From: a virus
Length of the DNA: 64,000 bases
Virus record (IMG/VR): IMGVR_UViG_3300033388_007730
Span: 155,189-219,188 of that record
Direction: 5' to 3' (one strand)
Shown: piece after piece, positions 17,057-46,140 of the stretch
How the letters are laid out: every line of letters starts with the position of its first letter
How positions within the stretch are numbered: the first letter of the stretch is position 1
Translations under genes and position numbers: made by a program
Notes under the pieces: model-generated
What the model was told of the DNA's origin: nothing
Seen by the model: the letters and a program-made list of their open reading frames with translations, nothing else
The model's database searches: none

Positions 17057-17383
17057 ATGAGTGATACGTATGGAATAAATGAAGGAATATCTCGTTTTGA
17101 GATAATGGATCTCTGGACTGATGAAGAAAGAGAAAAATTAGAGTCAGATAGAGAAGAAAAAAGAGAAAAGTTACAATCAGACAGAGAAGAAGCAGGTTGT
17201 TGCGAGTATTGTGGATCTAAAAATAACCCACATTGGGTTCCATCTATGACGAGATATCATTGGGATAAGTACAAAAAATTGGAAGATCCTAACAGAGACT
17301 TATTTTATTGTGATGAGTGTGAAGAGTATCATATGGAGTATTGGAATAACATGTGGGAAGAGTATAGTGCTTCGAGGTGGTGA
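17057..17383 (+). CDS. Zinc-ribbon protein with N-terminal RFEIMDL tag
   Basis: 108 residues. Residues 12-19 are SRFEIMDL, an N-terminal copy of the recurrent tag motif. A charged coiled-coil of EREKLESDREEKREKLQSDR type follows, then a zinc ribbon (CEYCGSK ... FYCDECEEY). Architecture matches the 17677 gene (tag, charged helix, zinc ribbon), so the two are likely paralogues. First gene after a strong promoter. Confidence 0.7.
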   Translation: MSDTYGINEGISRFEIMDLWTDEEREKLESDREEKREKLQSDREEAGCCEYCGSKNNPHWVPSMTRYHWDKYKKLEDPNRDLFYCDECEEYHMEYWNNMWEEYSASRW

Positions 17384-17384
17384 A

Positions 17385-17680
17385 ATGGATAAAATAATAG
17401 TTGTACATGATAAAAATTCAGAATATGATGCATCACCGTTTCATGATGTTCCATATGAGAAATTAAATTTTTCTGTTAAAATTAATGCTCATTTGATAGT
17501 ATATGTTTCTGAACAGAATCAAGAAGTGACTATAATTAAAAATAGATGGGGATCGAATGATGATCCTAAGATAATTAGTTTTTTGAAAATTTTTACGAGA
17601 TAGAAAATTCTCCTCCGATTGAAGAAGAGATAGAACCAGAAATTCCAGTTAATAGATTTGAGATGATGGATTTTGAATGA
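17385..17680 (+). CDS. Small protein with C-terminal RFEMMDFE tag reached by -1 shift
   Basis: ATG 17385 opens a frame that stops at 17603 after FLKIFTR. The -1 frame downstream reads FENFYEIENS... and ends NRFEMMDFE at stop 17678-17680, which overlaps the next ATG as the neighbouring genes do. The switch point is a T TTT TTG heptamer at 17579-17585 in the correct phase. Either a programmed -1 frameshift adds the tag, or one T is missing from the run. The full product would be about 98 residues. No known domain. Confidence 0.6.
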
Positions 17681-18039
17681 GTAAACATAATGAACAATTT
17701 AGATTTGATATAATAGATTTTGGAGATGATATAGAAAATGCTTATCAGGCAAAATTAGAGAGAGAAGAGAAAAAGAGAGTAGAGAAAGTTGTTAGATTAG
17801 CAACGGATTGTAAACGCAAGGTAGAAGAAAAAGGAGTTTGTGAGGGTTGTGGCGGGAAAGAGAAATTGAGATGGGTTTGTAACGAAGAAGCCTACTTATG
17901 TTATGATTGTTATTATAAAGGTATGCGACAGTGGGAAGATCTTTGTTGCTCTCATGGTCGTAGCGCCGAAGATATTCCTGGTTTTATATATGATGATGAA
18001 TGGGAGTATCTTTGGGAAAAAGAGCAAAAAAAAACTTAA
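17677..18039 (+). CDS. Zinc-ribbon protein with N-terminal RFDIIDF tag
   Basis: 120 residues. FRFDIIDFGDD sits at residues 8-18, then a charged helix, then a zinc ribbon (CEGCGGKEK ... YLCYDCYYK). Paralogue-like to the 17057 protein. Its ATG overlaps the stop of the frame-shifted upstream gene, indicating coupled translation in the 17.0-18.0 kb cluster. Confidence 0.7.
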   Translation: MSKHNEQFRFDIIDFGDDIENAYQAKLEREEKKRVEKVVRLATDCKRKVEEKGVCEGCGGKEKLRWVCNEEAYLCYDCYYKGMRQWEDLCCSHGRSAEDIPGFIYDDEWEYLWEKEQKKT

Positions 18040-18092
18040 AAAGAGTTAAGTATACTTGACGCATTTGAAGTATTTGAAAAGGATCTAGGAAT

Positions 18093-18323
18093 ATGAGTAA
18101 AATAGAAGAAATAGAAAAAGAGAATGTAGCTTTAAGAGGATGTATAGATTCTGCTTTAATGACATTAGCAGATTATGATGGATACAGAGAAGCAGAAGGT
18201 TTGATGGGACTTATAGATGATGTTGTTGAGACTTTACAATCTGGTTGTTCAAATAGAATAGTAGATTTTGAGAGCAGGAAAGTTTGTCCTTTGTGTTTTC
18301 AAAGATTAAAGAAAGAAGAGTAA
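18093..18323 (+). CDS. Small helical protein with CPLC motif
   Basis: 76 residues. Begins with a Glu/Lys-rich helix (SKIEEIEKENVALRG) and ends with SRKVCPLCFQRLKKEE, a single CxxC that could bind zinc in a dimer. Not recognised. Followed one base later by the HNH-RNA ligase gene. Confidence 0.55.
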   Translation: MSKIEEIEKENVALRGCIDSALMTLADYDGYREAEGLMGLIDDVVETLQSGCSNRIVDFESRKVCPLCFQRLKKEE

Positions 18324-18324
18324 A

Positions 18325-19371
18325 ATGTTACTTACAAGAGAACAATTTAGAAATGGAGTACTTGAGAGAGATAACAATCAGTGTGTTATCTGCGGAAGCT
18401 CTACAGATCTTGTGGCACATCACATTATGGAGAGAAGATTATTTGAAGATGGTGGATACTACATTTCAAATGGTAGCACACTCTGCGAAGAACATCATAT
18501 TCTTGCTGAGCAAACTGTTTTGTCTTGTGAAGAGATTAGAGAAGCAGCAGGAATTACAGATATTGTTTTACCTCCTCATCTGTATCAAGATACTAAGTAT
18601 GAAAAATGGAGTAACATCATACTCTCTGATGGTCGTAGGTTAAAAGGTGAGTTGTTCTTTGATGAGTCTGTTCAGAAGATACTTAAAGCAGGCGATGTAT
18701 TAAAGCATTTTTGCAAATATGTCAAATATCCAAGAACCTGGCATCTCTCACACAGTCATAAGGTTCATCGTAATGATATGCAGTTAGATTCTAATAAACA
18801 GTTTAATGGCAAGAAAGTAGTAGTCACTATTAAGATGGATGGTGAAAACACCACAATGTATAATAACTATCTTCATGCTCGTTCAGTTGATAGTGCTAAT
18901 CACCCTACAAGAGGTTGGGTTAAAAGAATACATGCTGAGATGGGATGGAATATTCCTGAAGGTTGGAGAGTCTGTGCTGAGAATATGTATGCTAAACACA
19001 CTGTTGAATATGAGAACCTTGAATCTTATCTTCTTGTTTTTTCTATATGGAATGAAAAGAATGAGTGTTTGTCATGGGATGATACTATTGAATGGGCAGA
19101 ACTGTTAGAACTTTCTATGACTCCTGTTCTTTATGTGGGAGAATGGGATGAAAAAAAGATTCATTCTTTATGCCCAAAAGAATATAATGGAGATAAAGTT
19201 GAAGGATATGTGGTCCGTTTATTTGAATCTTTTACATATGGGGATTTCAGAAAATCAGTAGCCAAATATGTGAAGCCAGAATTTGCAGATCAACTCGGAA
19301 CTGGGAGCAGCCACTGGAAGTATAAAAAGATAATTCCCAACAAATTACAAAAGAAAGTTGTTGAAAAGTGA
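18325..19371 (+). CDS. HNH nuclease-RNA ligase fusion
   Basis: 348 residues. Residues ~1-65 form an HNH module: CVICGSSTDLVAHHIMER, then TLCEEHH. From ~150 it is a nucleotidyltransferase: TIKMDGENT is ligase motif I with the catalytic Lys, CAENMYAKH is motif III-like, VEGYVVRLF is motif IV and AKYVKP motif V. The fold is that of RNA ligases of the Rnl2-like/DRB0094-like group. HNH domains cut nucleic acid, so fusing cutting and sealing in one chain suggests an RNA-processing or repair enzyme. Both motif sets appear intact. Confidence 0.85.
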   Translation: MLLTREQFRNGVLERDNNQCVICGSSTDLVAHHIMERRLFEDGGYYISNGSTLCEEHHILAEQTVLSCEEIREAAGITDIVLPPHLYQDTKYEKWSNIILSDGRRLKGELFFDESVQKILKAGDVLKHFCKYVKYPRTWHLSHSHKVHRNDMQLDSNKQFNGKKVVVTIKMDGENTTMYNNYLHARSVDSANHPTRGWVKRIHAEMGWNIPEGWRVCAENMYAKHTVEYENLESYLLVFSIWNEKNECLSWDDTIEWAELLELSMTPVLYVGEWDEKKIHSLCPKEYNGDKVEGYVVRLFESFTYGDFRKSVAKYVKPEFADQLGTGSSHWKYKKIIPNKLQKKVVEK

Positions 19372-19625
19372 TTAAAGCTATGTTAGAATTAGAGCTAGTG
19401 TATCCTTATAACAGGTCAATGGGTACTTTAGCTGACTTTTGTGGTTTATGGGATTGTGGCATACTTGGTGGCGGGACTAATAGTGTAAAAGCTTTAATAT
19501 CCATGCCTTCTTTTCATTTTAAAAAGATATTTGGTACAAATCCAAGAGTTGGAAATTATGGTATCCCTAGTGGAATGGAAAAATTTATAGCAGGTGTGAA
19601 AGTTAAAGAAATAATAACAATTTAA
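19368..19625 (+). CDS. Hypothetical small protein
   Basis: 85 residues from GTG 19368, overlapping the ligase stop by four bases (GTGA). Composition is mixed with a glycine-rich centre (CGILGGGTNSVKA) and a basic C-terminus. Not recognised. Confidence 0.5.
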   Translation: MIKAMLELELVYPYNRSMGTLADFCGLWDCGILGGGTNSVKALISMPSFHFKKIFGTNPRVGNYGIPSGMEKFIAGVKVKEIITI

Positions 19626-19636
19626 GAGAGAAAGAA

Positions 19637-20242
19637 ATGATTAAGATTAAAGATCCAAAAAGAATTATTACAGCAAAGAGAAAAAAGAACATAATCTGTT
19701 GGCTCGATTTGGATGGCGTAATTTGCTATTGGTTAAAATCAGCTGCAAACACTCTGGGAATAGATTTGAGAAGGTCTGATATTAGACAACAGCTTAAAGA
19801 TGGAAAGAGAATGGAAAGTTTTGTAGGTGGTGATTCTAAAATGTGGACTAAGATTGATGCTGAAGGCGAAGCCTGGTGGGAAAATATAGAAAAACTTCCT
19901 TGGGCTGATGACTTAATTAATCTTCTTAAGAAAGAAACAAAAGATTTATCATTTCTAAGTTCTCCTTCTAATAGTCCTACTTGTTATTCCGGAAAAATAA
20001 AATGGGTACAAAAGAATTACCCAAAGATGGATAGAGATGTATTTATTGGATGTAAAAAATATAGATGTGCTAGTTCTGATTCTCTTCTTATTGATGATAC
20101 CGCAAAAGAGTGTAAGAAGTTTAGAGAAAATGGTGGGCATGTTTTTGAGTGGCCTAATGTTCTATCTATTATTGATGGAGAAATTAAGATAGAAGATGTA
20201 TTAAGTGATTTGGCTAATGAAATAAATAAAATAAGATTATAA
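19637..20242 (+). CDS. HAD-superfamily phosphatase, 5'(3')-nucleotidase-like
   Basis: 201 residues. CWLDLDGVICYW gives the DxDGV nucleophile motif; LSSPSN is the motif II Ser region; a Lys in KKYRC and SLLIDDTAKECKKF give motifs III and IV with paired Asp. The arrangement matches small phage deoxyribonucleotidase-like HAD proteins that dephosphorylate nucleotides. Consistent with other nucleotide-metabolism genes here. Confidence 0.8.
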   Translation: MIKIKDPKRIITAKRKKNIICWLDLDGVICYWLKSAANTLGIDLRRSDIRQQLKDGKRMESFVGGDSKMWTKIDAEGEAWWENIEKLPWADDLINLLKKETKDLSFLSSPSNSPTCYSGKIKWVQKNYPKMDRDVFIGCKKYRCASSDSLLIDDTAKECKKFRENGGHVFEWPNVLSIIDGEIKIEDVLSDLANEINKIRL

Positions 20243-20253
20243 GGGATGGATTT

Positions 20254-20568
20254 ATGAAGTATGTATTAGCTGGAAAATCAGAAACTTTTAATTTGTATTG
20301 TCATATAAATAAACAGCAACCTGATAAAGATGTAATATATGCGAAAACAGAGAAAATATTTAATGACACAACTGACATTGATACGATAGTATTATTGTCT
20401 GGATGGTGGGGAAAAAGTTGGGCTAAAAAGGCTCTTAAAGGTATTCTTGAAGTATATCCTTGTATAGATATAGAGTATTTGGATGGGCAATTTGGAGAGA
20501 AAGAGAGAGAGGGTATTTCTGCTCAGAAGAGTACACTTACCCGATTTGATTTAATAGATTTGGAGTAA
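20254..20568 (+). CDS. Small protein with C-terminal TRFDLIDLE tag
   Basis: 104 residues ending LTRFDLIDLE. The body (LAGKSETFNLY, IVLLSGWWGKSWAKKAL) suggests a small alpha/beta domain but no known family. It has a good GGGAT ribosome-binding site. Confidence 0.65.
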   Translation: MKYVLAGKSETFNLYCHINKQQPDKDVIYAKTEKIFNDTTDIDTIVLLSGWWGKSWAKKALKGILEVYPCIDIEYLDGQFGEKEREGISAQKSTLTRFDLIDLE

Positions 20569-20612
20569 AAGTAGTGAAGAAATAGTTATGATAGCTGCTG
20601 AGGAGAATAGTG

Positions 20613-26007: not shown

Positions 26008-28380
26008 ATGGAAGATATAAATATCAAATCATTATTACAAGGTGGAATTCGTAAAGATCCAGAAGATGATAGAGATTTTATTTTTACAACACCACATATT
26101 CCTGATCATACTGTCTTGGGAAGTGCTGATTCTATTCCATTAAAAATAGATCATTCTAATAAGATGGGTTCGGTTAAGTTTCAAGGTGCGTTAGGATGCC
26201 ATGATATTAGAACAGAAATACTTACAGAAAAAGGTTGGAAACTATTTAAAGATTTGGATAAAGAAGAAAAAGTAGCTACCGTTAATCCTAATACCCATGA
26301 AATTGAATATCAAGAGCCAATTAATTATTTAGAATATGATTATGAAGGAGATATGTATTATTTTCACCATAAAAGTGGATTAGATGCTATGGTTACTCCT
26401 AATCATAAGATGTATGTCAAGAAATGGGATAATAAAAATATGACATTAAAAGAAGAATTTGAATTCATTGAAGCACAAAATATGGGTTGGTATTCTGGAT
26501 TGTTGACAAAAATTGATTGGGATGGGATCTCTCCCAAAACAATGAAAATGCCAGATGTTGAGATAGGACAAAGAAATGGAAGCAAAAAACAATCTATAAG
26601 AATAGGTAAAGAAATTGATACTACTAATTTCATTACATTTTTGGGATTATATTTAGCAGAGGGCTGTTGTTATCGTCCTGAGGGTAGTGGATCTTACAGA
26701 ATTGAGATCGCCGCTAGTGACAATAATGATAGGAAAAATGAAGTTATTGAAATTATTGATGATTTGCCGTATAAATATACTATTTATCATGATAGGATAA
26801 CAATATGGAATAAATCTTTATATACATTTCTTAAGCCTTTTGGGAATGTTTATACTAAGTCAGTACCAAGATTTGTTATGGATTTGAATAAAAAGGATAT
26901 CGCTGCATTTATGTATGGTTATTATTTAGGAGATGGATCTTTTCATGATAATGGGGCAAGGACAGGGTATTCGGTATCTGAACATTTAATTGATGATCTT
27001 CAAGAACTATCTTTGAAAATAGGGGTATATAGTAGGAAAAAAAGTAGATCACCTAGAATTGCATATATTAAAGGTAGAAAAATTTTTGGTAAAGAAAGTT
27101 ATGAACTTCATGAAAGACAAATAGATACGAAGTTGTCGATAGATAGAAATAAATATTCATCCAAAGTTCCATATAATAATAAAGTATATTGTGTAGAAGT
27201 CCCTAATCACATACTTATTACTAGAAGGGGTGGTTGTATTCTAATTTCTGGCAATTCGTGCGTAGCGTTTGCAGCTTGTGCTTTAAAAGAGTGGCAAGAA
27301 ACAATAGAACATGAAAAGGAAGTTTTGGCAGGGAAAAAAGATCATAGAGAAGGTAAAGAATATAATTTGTCTGAACAGTGGATTTATTGGAATTGTAAAA
27401 AAATAGATCCATGGCCTAATTCTGAAGGAACAAATCTGAGATCAGCTATGAGAGTATTAAATAAGATTGGAGTTCCTACCGAACAAGCTTGGGGTTACAC
27501 TGATGATAAGGTGAACATTGGTGAACCTGAAAGCTGGGCATATATGATAGCAAGGTGGAATTTAATAGGGTCTTATTGGAGAATATCAGGATTAGATCAA
27601 ATTAAAAAAGCATTGATCGAGAGTCCTATTATTATTGGGATGGCTTGTTTTAGAGAAATGTATGGTAATTTAGAACATGGTTTAATACCTTATCCTGCTA
27701 ATCCTGGAGAAGTAATGTCTCATCATGCTGTTTGTGTTGTTGGTTATGATGAAGAGAAAAAACTCTTAAAATTTAAAAATAGTTGGTCTAAGTTCTGGGG
27801 AGATGTTGGTTATGGATATATACCTTATGATTATGTAAGAGATTTTGTATGGGATGCGTGGATTGCTAGAGATATTAGTGTAACTCATGAAATGCTTGAA
27901 GGTACTAGATTATTGGTAGGTGCAGATGTACCAACAGTAATAGAGATAGCTGAGACACCACTTATACAAAAAGATACAGAAGAGAATTTTTCTTTTGTAG
28001 GATTTAAGTATCCTTCTCTTTTAGATACTTTTTCTATTATTAAAGATATTTTTGGAGTTCCAGAAATAGAGATATTTAGAGCTTCTAAAAAGGTGGGAGT
28101 TAAATTAGAAGATTCTTCATCTATTAACTTATTCTGTAAAAAATATTTTGCTGAGTTTAGAAAAGAATCTGTAAAGAAATATGGATTTGAAGTCGATGTT
28201 ATTAAAGTGGATGATGAATATCCAATTATTGGTATTTGTTTGTGTGAAAAAGAAATTAGTGATAAATTTGATGAAAATCAGATAAAGATAGAAGATGTAA
28301 TGAAAAAAGTGGTTGGCATGAGAGATATATTGGCTCTTGGCAAAGATATAATAATTTACAATGGTGTGAGAAAATATTAA
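26008..28380 (+). CDS. Papain-like (C1) peptidase interrupted by a LAGLIDADG intein
   Basis: 790 residues. Extein 1-63 and 417-790 join as FQGALG + SCVAFAACALKEW, giving the papain QGxxGSC active-site motif. The catalytic His is in MSHHAVCVVGYD and Asn in FKNSWSKFWGDVGYG. A C-terminal ~150-residue region is unrecognised. The intein occupies residues 64-416. No signal peptide. Possible roles are prohead-type processing or attack on host proteins. Activity requires intein removal, since the intein separates the nucleophile from its preceding Gly. Confidence 0.9.
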   Translation: MEDINIKSLLQGGIRKDPEDDRDFIFTTPHIPDHTVLGSADSIPLKIDHSNKMGSVKFQGALGCHDIRTEILTEKGWKLFKDLDKEEKVATVNPNTHEIEYQEPINYLEYDYEGDMYYFHHKSGLDAMVTPNHKMYVKKWDNKNMTLKEEFEFIEAQNMGWYSGLLTKIDWDGISPKTMKMPDVEIGQRNGSKKQSIRIGKEIDTTNFITFLGLYLAEGCCYRPEGSGSYRIEIAASDNNDRKNEVIEIIDDLPYKYTIYHDRITIWNKSLYTFLKPFGNVYTKSVPRFVMDLNKKDIAAFMYGYYLGDGSFHDNGARTGYSVSEHLIDDLQELSLKIGVYSRKKSRSPRIAYIKGRKIFGKESYELHERQIDTKLSIDRNKYSSKVPYNNKVYCVEVPNHILITRRGGCILISGNSCVAFAACALKEWQETIEHEKEVLAGKKDHREGKEYNLSEQWIYWNCKKIDPWPNSEGTNLRSAMRVLNKIGVPTEQAWGYTDDKVNIGEPESWAYMIARWNLIGSYWRISGLDQIKKALIESPIIIGMACFREMYGNLEHGLIPYPANPGEVMSHHAVCVVGYDEEKKLLKFKNSWSKFWGDVGYGYIPYDYVRDFVWDAWIARDISVTHEMLEGTRLLVGADVPTVIEIAETPLIQKDTEENFSFVGFKYPSLLDTFSIIKDIFGVPEIEIFRASKKVGVKLEDSSSINLFCKKYFAEFRKESVKKYGFEVDVIKVDDEYPIIGICLCEKEISDKFDENQIKIEDVMKKVVGMRDILALGKDIIIYNGVRKY
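26197..27255 (+). mobile_element. Full-length intein with LAGLIDADG endonuclease
   Basis: 353 residues. Begins Cys (CHDIRTEILTEKGW, block A), block B around DAMVTPNHKMYV, endonuclease motifs FLGLYLAEGC and YGYYLGDGS, then block F/G CVEVPNHILITRRGG ending SGN before Ser+1. The usual penultimate His is Gly. Inserted directly before the peptidase nucleophile Cys. Confidence 0.92.
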
Positions 28381-34668: not shown

Positions 34669-35670
34669 ATGAAATTGTTATTTGTAGTATTGATTAGCAT
34701 GTTATTCTGCGTATCTCTTAATGCGGCAGATATTGAACTAAGTGATATTAGTGGTGGTTCTGAGGAATTATTCAATTTTAGAAAGGTAGATGAAGGAGAA
34801 AGATTCTCTTTTACGCTTCGGCACAGTACAGGAGAAGTATTTGCTAAGAATATGCCTTTTGGAGCAAGGTTAACGAGTGTAGGGGAAGGAACCTGGGAAT
34901 TTGATTGGATACCTGCTGATGAACAGAGTGGAGAGTATACTATTGGATTCTATACCCACGATTCAAATAATTTAGTTTATAAAAACGTTAGAGTGCTGGT
35001 TGCTGATACTAAATTTATGATCACAGCACAGGAAGAATTCTCTTATCTGTTTACAGCAACTGATCCAGATGAAGATGATGTTGAGCTAACTATTACTAAT
35101 CTTCCAACTGGAGCTATATTTGTTGGGAGTCGTTTTAATCCTAAGATATTTTCTTGGACTCCCACTGAAGATCAGGTAGGTATTCATACTATGACATTAA
35201 TAGCTACAGATAATCCTTCAAGTGGGACTCCTAAACAGGATGTTAGTATAATAGAAATGAATGTTACGTTGCTTTCAAAAGCCTCTATGCCGTTTGATTT
35301 TAATAGAGATGGGATAATTAATATGATAGATTATGCGATTTTCTCTGAGCATTGGTTAAGGGGTAGTATTAGATCTGATGCTGTGGTTCCTATTACTATT
35401 GTGCCAACTGTTAGCGTAGTCACTACTGAATTAACTGAGGAAGAGAAACTAAATGCTGTGGTTGTGTATAAAGTAGCGTCTGGAACAGAGTATCATAAAG
35501 TAGATTGTATCTATTCAGTAGGTCGTTCAATACGAGGTACGATAGGAGAGTATAAGGCAGATGGATTGGAACCTTGTACTCGTTGTCAGCCAGATGATGT
35601 TAATTATGTGTTTTATTCTAAAAAATCAATAGGTGAAATTCTAAGAGATGCTTTACCTGGAGTTGAGTGA
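34669..35670 (+). CDS. Secreted protein with Ig-like, dockerin-like and YHxxxC domains
   Basis: 333 residues. Signal peptide KLLFVVLISMLFCVSLNAA with cleavage near residue 20. Residues ~20-200 look like two Ig/cadherin-like repeats (ITNLPTGAIFVGSRFNP, FSWTPTEDQVG). FDFNRDGIINMIDYAIFSEH (~205-225) is a dockerin type I-like EF-hand half typical of Planctomycetota secreted proteins. The end has EYHKVDCIY ... GLEPCTRCQPDD, a small Cys/His metal-binding domain. Very unusual cargo for a phage. Confidence 0.75.
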   Translation: MKLLFVVLISMLFCVSLNAADIELSDISGGSEELFNFRKVDEGERFSFTLRHSTGEVFAKNMPFGARLTSVGEGTWEFDWIPADEQSGEYTIGFYTHDSNNLVYKNVRVLVADTKFMITAQEEFSYLFTATDPDEDDVELTITNLPTGAIFVGSRFNPKIFSWTPTEDQVGIHTMTLIATDNPSSGTPKQDVSIIEMNVTLLSKASMPFDFNRDGIINMIDYAIFSEHWLRGSIRSDAVVPITIVPTVSVVTTELTEEEKLNAVVVYKVASGTEYHKVDCIYSVGRSIRGTIGEYKADGLEPCTRCQPDDVNYVFYSKKSIGEILRDALPGVE

Positions 35671-35674
35671 TATT

Positions 35675-35997
35675 ATGCCTATACCACAATATTTAAGAGG
35701 TCTGGTTGATACTGATTTGTTAGTAGTAACTAATAATTTGTTTCGTTATATAAATGCAGAATTACGCGATCATGCAGCTGATTTTGTTGTGTATGGAGAA
35801 ATATCGGTAGATATCCGAGAGATGGATAATCATGAAGGATATTTTGATTTAGATTTTTTGAGAGGAAAATTTGGGATATTGAATCTAATGAAGAAGATTA
35901 TGGTTTAGTATTTACGGAAAAAGGGAAAAATAAGGTAATAGCAAGTGATGATGATGACAGTATAACAAGAAGTGAATTAATAGATTTAGAGGAATAA
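35675..35997 (+). CDS. Small protein with C-terminal TRSELIDLE tag reached by -1 shift
   Basis: From ATG 35675 the 0 frame stops at 35908 (LMKKIMV). The -1 frame after the T TTT TTG heptamer at 35854-35860 continues FERKIWDIESNEEDYG and ends SITRSELIDLEE at 35997, directly before the next ATG. Same heptamer, phase and outcome as the 17385 gene. Full length ~107 residues; no known domain. Confidence 0.6.
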
Positions 35998-36945: not shown

Positions 36946-37548
36946 ATGTTATTAATTATAGATTTAGAAGCCACTTGCTGGGATAGAATTGAGAACAGAC
37001 AGAGAGAAGATATGGAAGTTATTGAAATTGGTGGTGCTCTGCTAATGGATGGACAAATTAAGCCAGAATCAAGAGATGATTATATCCCTACATTTTCAAT
37101 CTTTGTGAAGCCTAAAAAGAACCCGATTTTATCCGATTTTTGTAAGAATTTAACCTCTATTAAACAAGAGGATGTTGATGGTGCTAATCTCTTTCCAGAG
37201 GCTCTAGGATCGTTTCTATTAAACGTTGGCGTTTATTTGGGGGCAGAGTCCATAAGTAATATAATATGGGGTTCCTGGGGCAGATATGACCATAATCAGG
37301 TATCACAGGATTGTGCTCTTCATGGTCTTAAATATCCTTTTGGGAAGCATTGGAACATAAAAAGAGCTTATTCTGAGAGCAGAGGAGTTAAAAAAGGATT
37401 TGGATTAGCTAAAGCATTGAAGCAACTGGACTTACGATTTGAGGGCACTCATCATAGAGGAATTGATGATGCTATTATGATTTCTAAAGTAACTAGACAA
37501 GTTTTAGGTGAAAGTTATATGAGGTTTAAAAATGACCACTCGTTATGA
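36946..37548 (+). CDS. DEDDh 3'-5' exonuclease, Eri1-like
   Basis: 200 residues. LLIIDLEATCW is ExoI (DxE), IIWGSWGRYDHNQ carries ExoII Asp, and THHRGIDDA is ExoIII (H...D) as in Eri1/RNase T-type exonucleases. Eri1-like enzymes trim structured RNA 3' ends, in keeping with other RNA-processing genes here. Overlaps the next gene by 17 bases. Confidence 0.85.
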   Translation: MLLIIDLEATCWDRIENRQREDMEVIEIGGALLMDGQIKPESRDDYIPTFSIFVKPKKNPILSDFCKNLTSIKQEDVDGANLFPEALGSFLLNVGVYLGAESISNIIWGSWGRYDHNQVSQDCALHGLKYPFGKHWNIKRAYSESRGVKKGFGLAKALKQLDLRFEGTHHRGIDDAIMISKVTRQVLGESYMRFKNDHSL

Positions 37549-37882
37549 TGATATGATTAGACGAGAAGAACGTGAAAGACTGTATTGGGCTAGACTAAAT
37601 GAACGTGATCTGAATTACAGGAATGAATACGAATGTCATCCTATTCCTTCACCTTCTACTAACGATATGGCTGCTGAACATATTCGTTATCTTGAGACAA
37701 AAATTGAAGAGTTGCAGAGACATATTTCAGAATTAGCAAATGTGAATTCTCAAACTATTTGGAAGAGAGATGCATGTAAAACAGCGGCGAAAGAACTGAA
37801 GGAGGAGAATGAAAAATTAAAAGAACAAATAAAGAAGTTAAATGAATATGATAAATTTGATATTATGGATTTAGAATTATGA
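37532..37882 (+). CDS. Coiled-coil protein with C-terminal KFDIMDLEL tag
   Basis: 116 residues. N-terminal charged region (RREERERLYWARLNERD), a coiled coil of EHIRYLETKIEELQRHI and KELKEENEKLKEQIKKLNEY type, and the final EYDKFDIMDLEL tag. Translationally coupled to the next tagged gene (ATTATGA overlap). Confidence 0.65.
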   Translation: MTTRYDDMIRREERERLYWARLNERDLNYRNEYECHPIPSPSTNDMAAEHIRYLETKIEELQRHISELANVNSQTIWKRDACKTAAKELKEENEKLKEQIKKLNEYDKFDIMDLEL

Positions 37883-38451
37883 TTAGATTTGGAAGTGAAA
37901 TAAAAATAATGAATGCAGCATCAAAAAGAAAGTGGGTTGTACAACCAGTTGGTCCAGTTTCTTTATTTTATCAATATTTTAGAGATGTAGATCTTGAGTA
38001 TGAACCACCAGGAGCTTTACATATTCCTAAATTTGGAGATGTTAATTTTAAGATTTTAACAAAGTATTATTATAGAATTGATAAAGATGAGAATGATCCT
38101 AACTCTTTTTCTAGAAGAGTAGCTGCTTTTGTTGTTGATACTACAGAATATGGTCAAAAAGATCTTGAAATATTTTTATTTCCAATTAGTGTATATGGTC
38201 AGATAGTAGATGCTCCTGGTGCTGCTGGAGAATTTTCCTGGGAGATTACAAAAACAGGTAAGGCGATGCAAACTAGATACCATTCCCATCAGATGCCAAG
38301 AATACCGATTTCAGAAAAAGAGCAAAAAGTTATTGACAGTACTATGGAAGAGGTATCCGTATTAGATGTTATGACTCGTAGAATGAAAGTTTATACTACT
38401 AAGAGTTACACCACTTTTGATAGATTTGATATTTTGGATTTAGACGATTGA
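37879..38451 (+). CDS. Hypothetical protein with C-terminal DRFDILDLDD tag
   Basis: 190 residues with an unrecognised beta-rich body (KWVVQPVGPVSLFYQYF, VAAFVVDTTEYGQKDLEIFL) and the tag at the extreme C-terminus after a Thr-rich linker (YTTKSYTTF). The body looks like an independent folded domain, so the tag is an appended element. Confidence 0.6.
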   Translation: MIRFGSEIKIMNAASKRKWVVQPVGPVSLFYQYFRDVDLEYEPPGALHIPKFGDVNFKILTKYYYRIDKDENDPNSFSRRVAAFVVDTTEYGQKDLEIFLFPISVYGQIVDAPGAAGEFSWEITKTGKAMQTRYHSHQMPRIPISEKEQKVIDSTMEEVSVLDVMTRRMKVYTTKSYTTFDRFDILDLDD

Positions 38452-38526
38452 GTTCTGATGATTTCAATAGAGTGAACTACCTCGAAAAATAAGTTTAATA
38501 GATTTGAAGTTATGGAGATAGAGTAG
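38452..38526 (+). pseudogene. Remnant of another tagged gene (NRFEVMEIE)
   Basis: In the same frame after the 38451 stop come short segments split by TGA, then TTSKNKFNRFEVMEIE and TAG at 38524. The tag motif without a gene body indicates a decayed gene. It contains the 12-mer GTGAACTACCTC (38472-38483) that recurs beside the TnpB remnant at 45498. Confidence 0.5.
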
Positions 38527-39005: not shown

Positions 39006-39479
39006 ATGGATGTAATAATATGTAAAAATTGTGGTAGGAATAGTTATTATAGTTATTATGGATTTTGTAATATCTTCTGCTGTGCTGATTTTGCCCATAA
39101 ACATAATCTCTCTGTTAAGGAAGCGACAGACGACATAAGAGGCGAGAGAATCGAAGAGTTGGAATTAGATCTAAAATGTATGGAAAGTGATAGAAATTAT
39201 TATGAGGATATGGCGTATGAGTGTCGTCGTTATGAAGCAATGTATGATGAGGTAAAAGGAGATATGAAGCTCCTAAAAAAGTTTGAACATGCTGAAAAAA
39301 CCTTAAAAGTACATAAAGATATGGAATCTATTAAAAGTAGATTATGTTTAAGAGAAAAAAAGATTAATGAATTAAGAGACAAAATAGATAAATTAGAAGA
39401 AATCTGTCAGAAGCTAAGAGCAGAGAATAAGATTCTTAATAGCAAATATACTCGTTATGAGATAATAGAGTTATTTTAA
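39006..39479 (+). CDS. Zinc-finger coiled-coil protein with C-terminal TRYEIIELF tag
   Basis: 157 residues. N-terminal CKNCGRNS ... GFCNIFCC zinc-binding segment, long coiled coil (residues ~45-145, e.g. REKKINELRDKIDKLEEICQ), ending KYTRYEIIELF, a variant of the tag. Confidence 0.6.
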   Translation: MDVIICKNCGRNSYYSYYGFCNIFCCADFAHKHNLSVKEATDDIRGERIEELELDLKCMESDRNYYEDMAYECRRYEAMYDEVKGDMKLLKKFEHAEKTLKVHKDMESIKSRLCLREKKINELRDKIDKLEEICQKLRAENKILNSKYTRYEIIELF

Positions 39480-39885: not shown

Positions 39886-40284
39886 ATGGTAATAAATAAT
39901 TTAAAAGGATTACGTAAATATGGAATACTAAAAGAGGGAGACATAGTTGTATTTTATATTGATGGCAAAAAGATAAAATATTCAGTGAATGTTGCTGAAA
40001 ATACCGAGTACGGGTGGGTTTATTTGAACTGTACTGGTGATTTTAATCGTCTTATCTTCAAAATTTTAGGATTAGATGCTGAAAAAATATGTAAGGAAGA
40101 ATATGGGTATGCTCTAGAAAGAGAAGCTGATTGGCCTGCTGATTGGCCTGCTGATTGGCCTTGGGCTAAACGTAATGATTTTGAAGTAGTAACAAGAGTA
40201 GTTGAAAGATTATATAAAGAGATGGGACAAATATGTGAGGATGAAGTAGAGACAGATAGGTTCTCTCTTATAGATTTTGATTAA
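39886..40284 (+). CDS. Small protein with ADWP repeats and C-terminal DRFSLIDFD tag
   Basis: 132 residues. N-terminal SH3-like start (ILKEGDIVVFYIDGKKIKY), central triple ADWP repeat (12-bp unit GCTGATTGGCCT at ~40129-40160), then ETDRFSLIDFD at the C-terminus. Not recognised otherwise. Confidence 0.6.
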   Translation: MVINNLKGLRKYGILKEGDIVVFYIDGKKIKYSVNVAENTEYGWVYLNCTGDFNRLIFKILGLDAEKICKEEYGYALEREADWPADWPADWPWAKRNDFEVVTRVVERLYKEMGQICEDEVETDRFSLIDFD

Positions 40285-40296: not shown

Positions 40297-41097
40297 ATGA
40301 GTAGTAGTTTAATTATACAAGTTAGTGAAATTAAAGACGTAAGAAATCATCCAAATGCTGATAGACTTGATATTATCTCTATTAAAGGTAAAGGATGGGA
40401 GACAATTGTTAAGAGAGATGAGTATAAGGTAGGAGATGTAGTTATTTATATTCCCACAGATGTTATTCTTCCTCTTGAATTGGTAGAGAAGCTTGGGATT
40501 GCGAATTACTTAGCTGGAAAGCAGAAGAATAGAGTTAAGTGCGCAAGACTCCGTGGTGAGATGTCTTATGGTTTGGTTATTCCTAATGAAAAGAATTGGG
40601 AAGTAGGACGAGATGTTGCGGCAGAATTGGGTATTGTAAAATACGAGCCTCCTGTCAGAGCTATGGCTGGTGACGCTGCTCCAGAGGATTCAACTTTTCA
40701 TCGTTATACTGATATTGAGAATATCAATAACTTTCCTGATATTTTCAAAGATGGTGAGATGGTTGTTGCTACAGAAAAAATTGATGGATGTTTTAGATAT
40801 GATCAAAAGGTTTCTCTTGTCAACGGAGAGCAAATTTCTATCTCAGAAGTTGAGATTGGAGATATGGTTCTTTCTTATGATGAAAAAGAGGGCGAATTTG
40901 TGGCATCTAAAGTTGAGGATGTTATTATTCAAAATGTCTCTAAACAATGGGTAGAATTATCGTTTGATAATGGAAAAGAAATTGTTTGTACTGCTGATCA
41001 TTTATTCTTAACTAAGAACAGAAGATGGGTAGAGGCTGGTGATCTGGAAGAAGAAGATGAATTAGTTACGATGGATGAAGAATTTGAAAATAAATAA
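40297..41097 (+). CDS. DRB0094-type RNA ligase, N-terminal half plus N-intein
   Basis: 266 residues. N-extein 1-164: OB-like domain (VSEIKDVRNHPNADRLDIIS, VGDVVIYIPTD) as in DRB0094/Rnl5 ligases, ending ATEKIDG, the first four residues of motif I (KxDG). Residue 165 is Cys, beginning a 102-residue N-intein (block A CFRYDQKVSLVNGE, block B VCTADHLFLTKN) that stops at 41097. The C-half is encoded at 41243. Protein trans-splicing would yield KIDG-SNNRVGF, a perfect motif I. Confidence 0.9.
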   Translation: MSSSLIIQVSEIKDVRNHPNADRLDIISIKGKGWETIVKRDEYKVGDVVIYIPTDVILPLELVEKLGIANYLAGKQKNRVKCARLRGEMSYGLVIPNEKNWEVGRDVAAELGIVKYEPPVRAMAGDAAPEDSTFHRYTDIENINNFPDIFKDGEMVVATEKIDGCFRYDQKVSLVNGEQISISEVEIGDMVLSYDEKEGEFVASKVEDVIIQNVSKQWVELSFDNGKEIVCTADHLFLTKNRRWVEAGDLEEEDELVTMDEEFENK

Positions 41098-41100
41098 GAG

Positions 41101-41156
41101 AATAATCTCTACTGGTTAGAATATATATAGAAAGAGTTAAGCCAGTGGAGATTATT
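41101..41156 (+). repeat. Stem-loop between split-intein halves
   Basis: AATAATCTCTACTGGTT (41101-41117) pairs with AAGCCAGTGGAGATTATT (41139-41156), about 17 bp in RNA with two G-U pairs, starting four bases after the N-half stop. No T run follows, so not a terminator. A 34-codon frame (41179-41283, ending EIDKKKAARTKL) lies after it and overlaps the C-half; it may be residue of a lost insert. Confidence 0.75.
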
Positions 41157-41242
41157 ATGGTAAAAAACAATTAAATCTATGTTTAGAATATGGGAAAAAG
41201 ATATAAAAAAAGATTTAATGTCACAGATCGAAAGGATTAGAA

Positions 41243-41971
41243 GTGAAATTGATAAGAAAAAGGCTGCTCGAACAAAGTTATAAGTGCTGGGATCTAATTA
41301 TTGAAGGAGATCATCATAATTATTTAGTGGAGGGTGCGGTTGTTCATAACAGCAATAATAGGGTAGGTTTTGAGATTTCAGAGCCAGATCAGGATGGAAG
41401 TGTTTATGTTGAAATGAAAGCTGGTTCTAATAAGTTGAAGAGAAAACGTCCTCCAACAGAAAAAATGGCAGAGAATATTTATTGGTTTTCTCAATCTCTT
41501 GACTCTGTGAAGGGGTTACTCAATCATCTTGCTGAAGATGTTGGAGTTAAAAAGACTGTCGTTCTTTATGGTGAGGTTTATGGCAGAGTTCGTGGTGGTC
41601 ATAAGTCTCTTCATTATGGAAAGCCTGGAACTTTGAACTTTGCAGCATTTAGTTTGAAGATTGATGGTAAGTATGTTTCTTGGGATGTTTTTAAACGTCT
41701 GTGTGAGATTTTTGATGTACCTACTGTCCCTGTTGTTGGTATTTTTCCATTTAGCATGGAAAGAGCAAGAGAGTTAGCAACTGGTGATTCTCTTCTTGCA
41801 GCTAAGAATGGCACAAAGCATATGAGAGAAGGAATTGTTCTTTGTGCTTTTGAAGAGAGAGATGAAATGAAGACCAGGAGAGCTATTTTAAAGATGCTTA
41901 ATCCTGATTACCTTATCCTTAAAAATAAGAGTTATGCTAAGGGTGAGGCTACTGATTTTACAGATATGTAA
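41243..41971 (+). CDS. DRB0094-type RNA ligase, C-intein plus C-terminal half
   Basis: 242 residues from GTG 41243 (AAAGGA six bases upstream). Residues 1-36 are a C-intein: CWDLIIEGDHHNYLVEGAVV then HN (blocks F/G). Ser37 begins the C-extein SNNRVGFEI, followed by ligase motifs GEVYG (III), REGIVLCAF (IV) and LILKNKS (V). The break matches canonical split-intein geometry. The spliced enzyme would seal RNA ends in tRNA/RNA repair. A terminator follows. Confidence 0.9.
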   Translation: MKLIRKRLLEQSYKCWDLIIEGDHHNYLVEGAVVHNSNNRVGFEISEPDQDGSVYVEMKAGSNKLKRKRPPTEKMAENIYWFSQSLDSVKGLLNHLAEDVGVKKTVVLYGEVYGRVRGGHKSLHYGKPGTLNFAAFSLKIDGKYVSWDVFKRLCEIFDVPTVPVVGIFPFSMERARELATGDSLLAAKNGTKHMREGIVLCAFEERDEMKTRRAILKMLNPDYLILKNKSYAKGEATDFTDM

Positions 41972-42029: not shown

Positions 42030-42434
42030 ATGTTGGTATATTGGGTTGTTGGATGTGTGTTAGAGTATCTACTTATTGGGTTAGTTACAGGCGGTATCCT
42101 ATTAAAAAGCGAAAGGAAATGTCTAGACAAAATTGAGATAGGAGAAGACATTTTTATTCCGATGTTTCTTTGGCCTATTTTTGTTATATTTTGTATTTGT
42201 GATGGGGCTAGTTGGGTAGTAAAAAACATTTTTAGGTTCATAGCTCTTTATATATTTAAAATTCCAGCAACAACTCTACTCGCTAGTCAACCTGATGATG
42301 GAGGTTTTGTACAGGGCACATCAGGTGGAGGTAGTAATCCACCGCCTTCTACTCCTAAACCAAATATAACTCCACCATCGCAAAAAAAGGATGAAGTGCC
42401 AACTTCAAGAGCTAGTCTCATAGATATAGATTAA
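42030..42434 (+). CDS. Membrane protein with C-terminal SRASLIDID tag
   Basis: 134 residues. Two to three hydrophobic segments (VVGCVLEYLLIGLVTGGILL, FIPMFLWPIFVIFCICDG, FRFIALYIF), then a Gly/Pro-rich flexible tail (GGGSNPPPSTPKPN) ending TSRASLIDID. The tag at the end of a flexible tail on a membrane anchor suggests it is displayed to a cytoplasmic partner. Confidence 0.65.
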   Translation: MLVYWVVGCVLEYLLIGLVTGGILLKSERKCLDKIEIGEDIFIPMFLWPIFVIFCICDGASWVVKNIFRFIALYIFKIPATTLLASQPDDGGFVQGTSGGGSNPPPSTPKPNITPPSQKKDEVPTSRASLIDID

Positions 42435-42436
42435 TT

Positions 42437-42616
42437 ATGGTTGAATCCTTATTAGTATTTTTGATTATAGCGATAGCATCTTGTTACGGATGGATATATC
42501 TTGTGAAAACATTTATCTTATTGAGGAAATGGGATTTAGAGATAGCAGAGGAAGAGGCAGAAGAGTTATTGCGTGAAAATAATTTTTTGTGTAAAAGAAT
42601 TCAGGACTTGATATGA
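42437..42616 (+). CDS. Small single-pass membrane protein
   Basis: 59 residues from ATG 42437. An N-terminal hydrophobic helix (LLVFLIIAIASCYGWIYLV) is followed by an acidic coiled segment (EIAEEEAEELL). Overlaps the HPRT ATG by four bases (ATGA). Confidence 0.6.
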   Translation: MVESLLVFLIIAIASCYGWIYLVKTFILLRKWDLEIAEEEAEELLRENNFLCKRIQDLI

Positions 42617-43455
42617 AAAAATTAAATATAATAGATGAGGTCGTTTTTACTTATGATGATATTAGTACAGGAGTTAGATTAGTTGGTCGTAAGATATATG
42701 ATTATTATACTAGAGAAATAAAAACTGAAGAAGTGAATGTCTTTGTTATGTTACAAGGTGGAGCAATTTTTGCTGCTGATCTTTTTTCAGAAAAAGAACT
42801 TGGTTTTGAGAGTTCAAAAGTTAAATTCAAAATACATTACATCAATGCTAATAGTTATTATGGGGCGACAGAACCTTCTGGCAATGTGCTGGTAGATCTT
42901 TGTAGGGTTATTCCAGAAGATAATATTAAAAATAAAGATATATTGATAGTAGATGATATTTATGACAGAGGTAACACATTATCAGAAGTCGTAGAAAGAT
43001 TGAAAAAATATAATCCTAAATCTTTGGAATGTTGTGTTTTATTAAATAGAGAAATAGAAAAGGAAAAAGAAGTAGACGTTAAATTTATAGCTTTAAAAAC
43101 TGAGAGAACAGAATTTTTTATTGGGTATGGATTAGACTATGCTGGCAAATATAGAGAGCTACCACATATCGTTACATTTAATGGGGATATTGAAACTGGT
43201 GAACCATTTGAACAGATTTTGTGTAATTGCTGTGGTGAGAGTTGTGAAATAAAGATTCATGATGATAAATGTAGGTTTGGATTGATAAATGCTAAAGTCA
43301 AAGGAGGATATTTTTCTCCGGTCTTAGATGATTTAATGGTATACAGATTTGATATCTGTGAAGGATGTTTAAAGAAGATGTTCGAACAATTTAAAATACC
43401 TGTAACTATGGCAGAGTATGATGTTTGGACAGTAAAAGATGATTGTAATATTTAA
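42613..43455 (+). CDS. Hypoxanthine phosphoribosyltransferase with C-terminal zinc domain
   Basis: 280 residues. Residues 1-185 are a purine PRTase: VFVMLQGGAIFAADL, ILIVDDIYDRGNTL (PRPP-binding motif) and the flexible-loop region HYINANSYYG. Residues ~200-280 form an extra Cys-rich module (LCNCCGESCEI, ICEGCLKKMF) not in normal HPRT. Converts hypoxanthine/guanine plus PRPP to IMP/GMP. Adjacent GMP reductase makes a purine-salvage pair. Confidence 0.88.
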   Translation: MKKLNIIDEVVFTYDDISTGVRLVGRKIYDYYTREIKTEEVNVFVMLQGGAIFAADLFSEKELGFESSKVKFKIHYINANSYYGATEPSGNVLVDLCRVIPEDNIKNKDILIVDDIYDRGNTLSEVVERLKKYNPKSLECCVLLNREIEKEKEVDVKFIALKTERTEFFIGYGLDYAGKYRELPHIVTFNGDIETGEPFEQILCNCCGESCEIKIHDDKCRFGLINAKVKGGYFSPVLDDLMVYRFDICEGCLKKMFEQFKIPVTMAEYDVWTVKDDCNI

Positions 43456-43466
43456 GAGGTAGAATA

Positions 43467-43673
43467 ATGGATAAGCAAATACACAAGGCGATAAAAACTC
43501 TGAATAAGATAGGAGATGCTATTCAAGGTATAAGAGAAATAGGATTTGATGTTGAGAATCTTTCTAAGAAATTAAGGAATGCTGAACTTGAGATTTTACT
43601 TGCCATTGATTCTATGAAAGGTAAAGAAGAAGAAGACAGAGGAAAAACTAAAATCATGAAGAGGGAGATGTAA
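43467..43673 (+). CDS. Small helical protein
   Basis: 68 residues, coiled-coil-like (AIKTLNKIGDAIQGIREIG ... LSKKLRNAELEILLAI). Lies between the HPRT and GMP reductase genes and abuts the latter (43673/43674). Confidence 0.55.
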   Translation: MDKQIHKAIKTLNKIGDAIQGIREIGFDVENLSKKLRNAELEILLAIDSMKGKEEEDRGKTKIMKREM

Positions 43674-44621
43674 ATGAGACAATTAGCATATAATGATATT
43701 TCACTGAAACCTCAAAAGTGTGTTGTAGATAGTAGGAATTTATGTGGTACATCTATCATTTTTGGTGGGCGAGAGTTTCATATGCCAGTTTATCCATCAA
43801 ATATGAAAAGTGTTGTTGATATAGAAACTTGTAAATATATGGCTAATCAGGGGTGGTTCTATACTATGCATCGTTTTGATATAGATGTATTAGATTTTGT
43901 TAAAAGTATGAATAATGCAAATGTATACATCTCTATCAGCATTGGTATTAATACTGATTCTTATGAAACACTACAACAAATTTATCAAGAACCTTTATTT
44001 ATTGATTACATAACGATAGATGTTGCAAATGCTTGGTCAGAAAAAACTCATCAAATGGTTGCTTTTATTAAAGATAAATTCCCGCATGCTTTTTTGATAG
44101 TCGGCAATGTGGCAACTGGTGAAGCGGTAAGGGAAATAGAAGAATGGGGAGCAAATGCTATTAAGGTTGGCATTGCTGGTGGAAGTGTATGTATCACTAA
44201 AAATAAAACTTCGGTCCATCGCCCAATGGTTTCGACCATCCAGGATTGCGTATCAGCGAGAAAAAAAGTTTTTATTGTAGCTGATGGTGGAGTGGTTGAA
44301 CACGGAGATATAGCAAAAGCACTTGCTCTAGGTGCTGATATGGTTATGGCAGGATCACTTTTCGCAGGGTATGATCAATCATCTGGAAATATTATAGAAA
44401 TTGATGACTCTGGGACGAGATATAAAGAATATTATGGAAGTGCTTCTAAACATAACAAAGAGGAAGCGAAAAATATAGAAGGAAAGAAAATTCTAATAAA
44501 GTATAAAGGCAATATGGAACATCTTCTGAGAGAATTGACAGAAGATTTACAGAGTTCCATATCATATGTGGGGGCAAAAGATTTATCAGGATTAAGGGGA
44601 AGTGAAATATACTATATATAG
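43674..44621 (+). CDS. guaC: GMP reductase / IMPDH-family enzyme
   Basis: 315 residues, no CBS domains. LAYNDISLKPQKC start, AFLIVGNVATGEAVREIEEW, GIAGGSVCITK with the catalytic Cys (IMPDH/GMPR loop GxGxGSxCxT), ADGGVVEHGDIAKALALGAD and MAGSLFAGYDQ. The length and lack of CBS favour GMP reductase (GMP to IMP). With HPRT it would rebalance purines during infection. Confidence 0.88.
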   Translation: MRQLAYNDISLKPQKCVVDSRNLCGTSIIFGGREFHMPVYPSNMKSVVDIETCKYMANQGWFYTMHRFDIDVLDFVKSMNNANVYISISIGINTDSYETLQQIYQEPLFIDYITIDVANAWSEKTHQMVAFIKDKFPHAFLIVGNVATGEAVREIEEWGANAIKVGIAGGSVCITKNKTSVHRPMVSTIQDCVSARKKVFIVADGGVVEHGDIAKALALGADMVMAGSLFAGYDQSSGNIIEIDDSGTRYKEYYGSASKHNKEEAKNIEGKKILIKYKGNMEHLLRELTEDLQSSISYVGAKDLSGLRGSEIYYI

Positions 44622-44630
44622 GAGATGGAA

Positions 44631-44825
44631 ATGGGACATTATGATGATGGCATGAGTTGAGAAAGGGAGAAACATGAAAAGAAGATGAAGAAGGAGTATA
44701 CGAGTTGGATTATAGAAGAACTCGAAAGTAAAACAAGTGCAGAATTAAGAGATATTCATACACTTGTAAAAAGTATAAGTGAGGTAAGAGGTGCGATGAA
44801 ATTAGTAAAAGAGTTAACAAAGTAA
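44631..44825 (+). CDS. Small coiled protein interrupted by TGA
   Basis: ATG 44631 (AGGAGA upstream) reads MGHYDDGMS, stops at TGA 44658-44660, and continues in frame EREKHEKKMKKEYTSWIIEE to 44825. TGG to TGA would explain it. ATG 44685 could start the distal 46-residue helical peptide independently. Confidence 0.4.
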
Positions 44826-44848
44826 ATAATTTTTTAATAGGAGAAAAT

Positions 44849-45148
44849 ATGAATATTAAGTTGTTAAAGTTAATCACAGGTGAAGAAGTTATATGCGAAC
44901 TTAAAGATGAAGGAGATGATGTGGTTATGAAAAATCCTATCATTATGATGCCACAAAGAACAGAGGATGGGAAAGCTGATATAGCTATGGTAATGAAGTG
45001 GATGCCATCATCTGTAGACGAGTCTTTCAAAATAAGTAAACAGCATGTTATGTATATATCAGAACCACATATAGAGTTAGCTAATTATTATAGTGAGACA
45101 TTTGGAAGTGGGATTGTACTTCCTGAGAAAGGTTCTATTCAAATATAA
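44849..45148 (+). CDS. LSM-like conserved phage protein
   Basis: 99 residues. LLKLITGEEVICELKDEGDD ... VVMKNPIIMM resembles small phage proteins with an Sm-like beta barrel ('LxxGExVIxxV...xNPxxI'). AGGAGAA upstream. May bind RNA or assemble as a ring; unproven. Confidence 0.55.
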   Translation: MNIKLLKLITGEEVICELKDEGDDVVMKNPIIMMPQRTEDGKADIAMVMKWMPSSVDESFKISKQHVMYISEPHIELANYYSETFGSGIVLPEKGSIQI

Positions 45149-45149
45149 A

Positions 45150-45497
45150 ATGATAGGTAAATTAATAAAATTTATTATTGCTTGGTTTAGAATACCTAGA
45201 GGACCATACTGTTACACGATTAAAGAGGTAATTAGAGACCCTTCAGGTAATGCTCCTTCAATGATTCGCTCTAAAGTTTGTCCTTACTGGGGGATTAGGA
45301 AAGATTTGCCAGCACAGGCTAATGGATATTGTAGGTATTTAAGAGTCACAGATGTAGATCAGAATAATGATCCAGAATCAGAGTTCGTCTGCACTGTAAA
45401 GGAGACAGGTGAGAAGAGTGTTCTTAAAGCTCCAGATATACCATTTGGTACAAGTCGTTTGTGGGATCAATGTAAAGAGTGTGGAATAAAGGAATAG
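45150..45497 (+). CDS. Hypothetical protein, four Cys
   Basis: 115 residues from ATG 45150 just after the preceding stop. N-terminal hydrophobic amphipathic helix (KLIKFIIAWFRIPRG), then a beta-rich domain with paired Cys (YCYTIKEV, VCPYWGIRKD, FVCTVKE, WDQCKECGIKE). The final CxxC may bind zinc. It ends just before the TnpB-element end. Confidence 0.55.
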   Translation: MIGKLIKFIIAWFRIPRGPYCYTIKEVIRDPSGNAPSMIRSKVCPYWGIRKDLPAQANGYCRYLRVTDVDQNNDPESEFVCTVKETGEKSVLKAPDIPFGTSRLWDQCKECGIKE

Positions 45498-45535
45498 GTG
45501 AACTACCTCCTCCATAAAGGGGAGGCTTTTTAGAT
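45498..45535. repeat. Hairpin at TnpB-remnant end
   Basis: GTGAACTACCTCC, then TCCATAAA, then GGGGAGG and CTTTTT: a short hairpin that may be the subterminal end of an IS200/IS605-type element and also terminates the 45150 gene. The first 12 bases recur at 38472. Confidence 0.45.
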
Positions 45536-45544
45536 CTTTTACAA

Positions 45545-45970
45545 CTGAATAATGACTAGATTGAGCCAGCTGTGCTTTTCTACAGTTACTTACATCAACT
45601 ATATTTTCTAAAGTAGAAAATATAGTTGATACAGAGGTTTCTGTATCCCTAAGCATTGTATTTCTACGTTCCGTAGAAATTAAAGTTTTTAATCCTTCAG
45701 TTTCGATACATTGAGCACTTTTCAAGTCTCTATCTTCTGTATAGCCACAAGAACAGTTATAAGTTCTCTGCCATACAGGTAGTTTATTTTTAGCTTTACA
45801 GACAGGGCAAAGTTGAGTAGAGGGAAAGAACTTATCAACCATTACAGATGTATGTGCTTTTTTCTTTAAAGCACTAATTATTCCACCTATAGCAGTATTT
45901 TGAATTTTCTTTCCGTGTCTCCCAGCTTTCCAGGCTTTGATGCTCTCATCCTGAAAGATGATATATTCAA
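45545..45970 (-). pseudogene. TnpB (IS200/IS605-type) C-terminal remnant
   Basis: About 140 recognisable residues: IIFQDESIKAWKAGR, SALKKKAHTSVMVDKFFPST, then the zinc finger CPVCKAKNKL ... YNCSCGYTEDRDLKSAQCIE typical of TnpB/OrfB, including the RuvC-III Asp in DRDLKSA. The N-terminal two thirds are missing and the expected RuvC-II Glu (ExD) reads Gln in FQDES, so inactive. It replaced the 5' part of the tagged gene ending at 46140. Confidence 0.8.
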
Positions 45971-46017
45971 GGTTGATTTCGGATTGTGGAGGGATTTGGA
46001 TAAGAAGGACTCGTAAC

Positions 46018-46140
46018 GTTACAGTAGATAAAGATGATGCTAAACTTATCCATGAGTTTAGTAGGAATAGAGTTAAGAGGTTGAGAATGATGAGCAAATC
46101 AAATCCAGTATCTAGAGAAGAGTTAATAGATTTAGATTAG
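46018..46140 (+). pseudogene. 3' remnant of a tagged gene (SREELIDLD)
   Basis: About 40 codons reading TVDKDDAKLIHEFSRNRVKR ... SNPVSREELIDLD. The upstream codons in this frame are antisense to the TnpB remnant, so the gene lost its 5' part by insertion or deletion. The C-terminal motif is a clear copy of the recurring tag. Confidence 0.6.

Follow-up and report, generated by a model that had tools for sequence, protein, structure and literature searches.

Why do many small proteins of one phage, most of them with unrelated bodies, carry the same short peptide at one end? The question is raised by a 64,000-nucleotide stretch of virus DNA (the window), positions 155189-219188 of a 219,188-base record in IMG/VR (IMGVR_UViG_3300033388_007730, here G000). 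A preliminary description of this sequence had listed at least 12 copies of a recurring terminal tag, and we find all 12 at the places given (Table 1). Intact open reading frames (ORFs) hold eight of the 12 copies, two near the N-terminus and six at the C-terminus. Two more (17654-17680 and 35968-35997) lie in a different frame, directly downstream of an ORF. The copy at 38500-38526, taken for a remnant, indeed has no body upstream. The bodies were said to be unrelated, which is true of nearly all copies; the two N-terminal copies, however, look like related zinc-ribbon genes.

Tag frequency in the genome and its relatives

The remainder of the record was read in 20-kb stretches and all reading frames were scanned. 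The whole 219-kb genome contains about 28 tag copies, and the 16 copies beyond the window are found chiefly at 47-50, 63-69 and 85-92 kb. Chance would provide about one tag per genome. A C-terminus score of at least 12 bits is reached by 16 of 313 non-overlapping ORFs (0.02 expected from shuffled proteins), but these same motifs had served to train the underlying profile, and relatives are therefore the fairer, independent test.

One relative, G001 (351 kb), was found via the PolIII alpha protein, as were the smaller relatives G002 and G003. The 10 kb upstream of the G001 polymerase hold 13 tagged ORFs. The DNA pattern of the tag then led to more records, including G005 (298 kb) and G008 (548 kb). 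G001, G005 and G008 played no part in defining the motif. The preliminary description had suggested searching the complete genome and its relatives against a shuffled null, and both checks come out in its favour. The 298-, 351- and 548-kb relatives carry about 30, 38 and 64 tags, which together with those of G000 sit on more than 100 body families. C-terminally tagged ORFs number 19, 34, 27 and 56 in the four large genomes, compared to 0.6, 0.9, 1.0 and 1.5 in shuffles. A strict DNA pattern matches 26 times in G001, 17 times in G005 and 51 times in G008 (where several loci are listed twice because of two adjoining stop codons), and the reversed pattern never matches. In G008, about 40 small genes follow one another in an array (136469-153110, minus strand) that is almost entirely tagged and includes runs of paralogues.

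The result does not depend on our choice of motif. When we simply count non-homologous protein pairs that have at least six of their last nine residues in common, we find 21, 368, 246 and 498 pairs in the four genomes, but only one in the 200 kb examined of Bacillus phage G and none in the 50 kb examined of Moorella phage MTATph1. Neither of these two stretches contains a tag. The shuffles, the ORF counts and the motif-free pairs rule out a chance origin.

The tag is restricted to this phage clade. A longer tag-coding DNA pattern has no match in 257 Gb of prokaryote genomes (bacteria and archaea, GTDB), and its matches in IMG/VR are limited to the clade. The D-ending pattern typical of G000 has no match in IMG/VR, in a scan that may omit records of G000 itself. 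Two conserved tagged proteins have no homologues among INPHARED records, and neither tag-like peptides in solved structures nor a description of such a tag in the literature searched were found.

The tag and the proteins that carry it

The tag is 7-10 amino acids long. In G000 the consensus is [hydrophobic]-[D/T/S]-R-F-[D/E]-[L/I]-[M/I]-[D/E]-[L/I/F], often followed by one acidic residue. In G001, G005 and G008 it is P-I-x-[N/S/D]-R-F-[E/D]-I-L-D-L, mostly ending right at the stop. Position 1 is R, rarely K, and position 5 is L, M or I. All C-terminal copies are in frame with a stop, and 33 of 161 tagged proteins have one to four residues after the motif.

Tagged proteins are small, with medians of 98-110 amino acids and a maximum of 371. 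With the tags trimmed, BLAST sorts the 161 tagged ORFs into 104 families, 79 of which are singletons; one family has 16 members, which start with MKYKVGDKVRIKTW. The bodies include zinc ribbons, short beta domains, short membrane proteins, DUF4116 repeats, a metalloprotease-like HExxH protein and a paralogue of the single-strand DNA-binding protein (SSB). Pfam and PHROG recognise almost nothing among them, the single clear Pfam hit being the DUF4116 repeats (G001:136685). In the tagged protein that is conserved best (genome 62897-63703), there is a zincin-like HExxH...E core. A PDB sequence search with this protein gave no match, and a fold search returned weak IrrE and thermolysin matches with E values of about 1 or more, which support no claim of function. 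In the tagged metalloprotease-like protein that was modelled, the tail is disordered (model confidence, pLDDT, below 50).

The genes at 17057 and 17677 have homologues with a near-N-terminal motif in the large genomes, where relatives read [ND]RF[DE]LL[IL]FE[DT]A. Orthologues of the first in G001, G005 and G008 carry [ND]R[FI][DE]LL[IL]FE[DT]A near the N-terminus, and the G001 homologue of the second starts with MADSYNDRFELLIFEDA. Because such N-terminal forms occur in relatives, a free carboxyl end is probably dispensable for the tag.

Selection and genome dialects

Tags are more conserved than the sequence next to them, a further check that the preliminary description had called for. Among 38 reciprocal-best orthologue pairs in which both partners are tagged, the tag shows 81% identity and 96% similarity, whereas the ungapped linker reaches 33% identity. 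Yet 39% of the identical tag residues use different codons. Since synonymous codons differ, purifying selection acts on the peptide. The same variation rules out a DNA- or RNA-level element, for which one could cite tag ends (GATTTATGA) that in some cases run into the start codon of the following gene; the zero counts of the reversed controls and the stop-framed C-terminal copies also speak against it, and we consider this explanation, like chance, negligible.

Each genome also has its own version of the tag. Position 5 is M or I in G000 and L in G001, G005 and G008 (Fisher p = 3e-11), and the two groups also differ by I at -3 (p = 4e-6) and a hydrophobic residue at -2 (p = 1e-5). Position 4 differs too, and all four differences hold across unrelated proteins (p from 1e-5 down to 3e-11). 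In G002 the two most widespread tagged families are still tagged, with W or Y replacing F. Proteins with unrelated bodies have shifted dialect together within a genome. Because each genome has a dialect common to its copies, the simplest reading is that all copies share one partner, with which they would co-evolve.

A proposed docking peptide for one shared partner

To explain these observations, we propose a docking role for the tag, specific to this phage clade. Placed on the disordered tail of small accessory proteins, it would bring about 28-65 unrelated proteins per phage to a single, shared, phage-encoded hub. This hub may be the beta-type sliding clamp that the phage itself encodes, or a factor that travels with the clamp. 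As a whole this reading, a docking peptide for the replication-phase machinery with the clamp as first candidate, is tentative; it is our favourite, and we would not call it probable. Its parts differ in strength. Docking onto one shared partner, which the preliminary description had suggested, is well supported by the unrelated bodies, the disordered tail, the placement at either terminus, the selection on the peptide and the dialects. That the hub acts in the replication phase is less certain and follows from gene regulation.

Two intergenic elements, A (TTCCAGACAA) and B (TTGAAAGTGAAAG), are strongly over-represented (at 285-350 kb in G001 and 157-187 kb in G008, among other gaps), and each is followed by an AT-rich, -10-like stretch. 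Element A precedes untagged small genes. Element B stands before the genes for the clamp, SSB, the AAA+ ATPase, Ro and the polymerase, and before several tagged operons, including the G008 array. We infer that A is an early and B a middle promoter. Because tagged genes share element B with replication genes, the hub would work in the replication phase. When small genes are sorted by their nearest upstream element, 0 of 205 A genes and 50 of 400 B genes are tagged (Fisher p = 6e-10, an optimistic value because A and B genes come in blocks and are not independent). Structural genes are nearly free of both elements (no A and one B in 17 gaps). A third intergenic element, GTCGATATAT, is over-represented as well.

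The clamp was already named as a candidate in the preliminary description, and it has some support. The clade encodes its own replisome, consisting of PolIII alpha, a DnaX-like loader, delta and a clamp. The clamp gene (genome 151558-152823) lies between the DnaX-like and delta-like genes. Pfam PF02767 does not detect it, but in a fold search bacterial beta clamps take all the top places (best E 3e-7, probability 1.00), although the AlphaFold model has low confidence overall and is poor past domain I. Besides sharing the promoter-like element with tagged genes, the clamp ranks fourth of 125 core genes for excess divergence along the dialect split. This co-divergence is suggestive only: the rank corresponds to p ~0.03 and was noticed after inspecting many genes.

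Phage T4 provides the analogy. There, gp43, gp55 and gp33 bind the sliding clamp gp45 through C-termini that are hydrophobic-acidic and interchangeable (PMC2988020). The T4 carriers are three known proteins, all polymerase or transcription factors, whereas in our phages the tag sits on small proteins of no assigned function, and neither the core polymerase nor the sigma-like factors that were read have it. A second analogy is the bacterial beta-clamp motif (QLxLF, QL[S/D]LF), on which R-F-[D/E]-[I/L]-[L/M] can be overlaid as the same order of polar, hydrophobic, acidic, aliphatic and hydrophobic residues. Unlike that motif, the tag has no Q, no final F (L, M or I instead) and a strictly kept D-L afterwards. 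No Q-type tag turned up in scans in which position 1 could be Q. A beta-type clamp is present, but the tag does not follow the consensus of the bacterial clamp-binding motif.

Several observations weigh against the clamp. PolIII alpha ends in the canonical xxD[ILM]F (GADIFG, TIDIFG, TVDLFA, SVDMF and others) and delta contains the canonical E[ILV]SCF in all members with an available sequence. Both are close to the Escherichia coli clamp motifs QADMF and QAMSLF (PMC13254535, PMC2705854) and unlike the tag, and tags never carry xxD[ILM]F or ExSCF. Furthermore, 20-65 competitors for a single clamp pocket would be unusual.

Alternative explanations

None of the described families or systems matches the tag, but several suggest what else it could do. 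In T4, a capsid-targeting sequence (CTS), a terminal peptide of about 10 residues, is found on the small, divergent-bodied proteins IPI, IPII, IPIII and Alt, and the set of carriers changes between related phages (PMC9026906). By analogy, the tag could bring small proteins into the prohead, from where they would be delivered with the DNA to the next host. Like the T4 internal proteins, tagged proteins are small, diverse and fast-evolving, as the many singleton families show, and like the CTS the tag is a short terminal peptide common to proteins with unrelated bodies. The two peptides are unrelated in sequence. The CTS is N-terminal, cleaved by the prohead protease and limited to a handful of proteins, whereas the tag is mainly C-terminal, with two related genes carrying it near the N-terminus, and sits on 28-65 proteins. 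The promoter-like element of tagged genes is common with replication genes, not with the structural block. We did not recognise a prohead protease or scaffold, because the structural genes tested match no known structural family. We regard packaging as unlikely, though it is the strongest of the rivals.

Less can be said for an address tag leading to a new replication compartment or condensate, with a shell or scaffold protein as hub instead of the clamp. Many unrelated clients with a single label, a dialect per genome and co-regulation with replication genes would all be expected from it, and the hub could hide among the 123 clade-core genes common to the four genomes, since most tested non-replication core genes have no known homologues. 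As in nucleus-forming phages (Chimalliviridae), the phage would sort its own proteins. Those phages, however, recognise cargo of the nucleus by surface patches, and no conserved signal was found for their protein import (PicA; PMC11087766), whereas the tag is clearly linear. The phage tubulin PhuZ (PF00091) is found in 0 of 4 genomes, and the core replication enzymes themselves are untagged. We consider a compartment rather improbable.

Hubs such as RNA polymerase, the ribosome or a chaperone are frequent targets of the small proteins by which phages interact with their host. A host protein could thus be the partner, and bodies such as zinc ribbons and short beta domains would suit this role. 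But the dialect varies between phages and not among the proteins of one phage, the small genes behind element A, which resemble typical early genes, are never tagged, and the tag pattern is absent from the prokaryote genomes scanned. There is little to recommend this explanation. Even less plausible is a degron or chaperone-handling signal recognised by a protease or by an AAA+ machine. It would account for the common C-terminal position, and the clade core includes a highly conserved AAA+ ATPase. Unlike ssrA-type tails, which need a free C-terminus, the tag can stand near the N-terminus and tolerates one to four extra C-terminal residues, and ClpP was not found in the genomes.

Tag copies in the window and other genes

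Table 1. Tag copies in the window (window coordinates; aa, amino acids).
Position	Strand	Feature	Tag
17057..17383	+	108-aa zinc-ribbon-like protein	ISRFEIMDLW, near N-terminus (17093-17113)
17654..17680	+	Frame differs from ORF 17310-17603 just upstream	RFEMMDFE-stop
17677..18039	+	120-aa zinc-ribbon-like protein	FRFDIIDF, near N-terminus (17701-17721)
20254..20568	+	104-aa protein; orthologue tagged in 3/3 large relatives	TRFDLIDLE (20542-20568)
35968..35997	+	Frame differs from ORF 35648-35908 just upstream	RSELIDLEE-stop
37532..37882	+	116-aa coiled-coil-like protein	KFDIMDLEL (37853-37882)
37879..38451	+	190-aa homologue of phage SSB	DRFDILDLDD (38422-38451)
38500..38526	+	Body-less tag (remnant)	NRFEVMEIE-stop
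39006..39479	+	157-aa zinc-ribbon and coiled-coil-like protein	TRYEIIELF (39453-39479)
39886..40284	+	132-aa protein	DRFSLIDFD (40258-40284)
42030..42434	+	134-aa membrane-protein-like ORF	SRASLIDID (42408-42434)
45958..46140	+	60-aa ORF; remnant	SREELIDLD (46114-46140)

In the SSB homologue, the tag replaces the acidic aromatic tip of the phage SSB (genome 72820-73497), its paralogue; a tagged homologue is present in G001 (G001:21748-22257). Orthologues of the 157-amino-acid protein have DRF[KQ]L[LI][DE][LF] about 10 residues before their end. The 60-amino-acid ORF overlaps an antisense, TnpB-looking ORF (45378-46097). The out-of-frame tags that follow untagged ORFs (17580-17680 and 35890-35997) could reflect a frameshift, a slippage site or an assembly error.

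Several other genes deserve mention. The AAA+ ATPase (genome 55688-57346) and its orthologues are 62-65% identical across the clade and mostly end in [KR][DE]LD[LI]. The phage core also contains a translation initiation factor IF-3 (genome 55136-55648, L003:16136-16645), with both Pfam domains above cut-off. A Ro-like RNA-binding protein is encoded at window positions 50060-51799. From reading the sequence, intein-like insertions appear in DnaX-like, UvrD-like and PolIII genes (genome 146942-149647, 78969-81962 and 68674-71152); a cysteine-peptidase-like gene and an RNA-ligase-like gene were read as well (window 26008-28380 and 40297-41971).

Meaning for the phage clade

The tag belongs to a known kind, the shared terminal targeting peptides of phages, here on an unusual scale. 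To our knowledge, it is cells and not viruses that group dozens of unrelated proteins by linear address tags. It is conceivable, though we would not presume it, that the phages use a protein-sorting code, in which an exchangeable peptide with a dialect for each lineage sends dozens of proteins to an undescribed compartment, cargo hold or replication hub. The tag could also mark this clade of giant phages and help to find it. It offers a handle on the partner, which a pull-down with one peptide could exploit, and would at once give more than 150 proteins of no known function the same destination.

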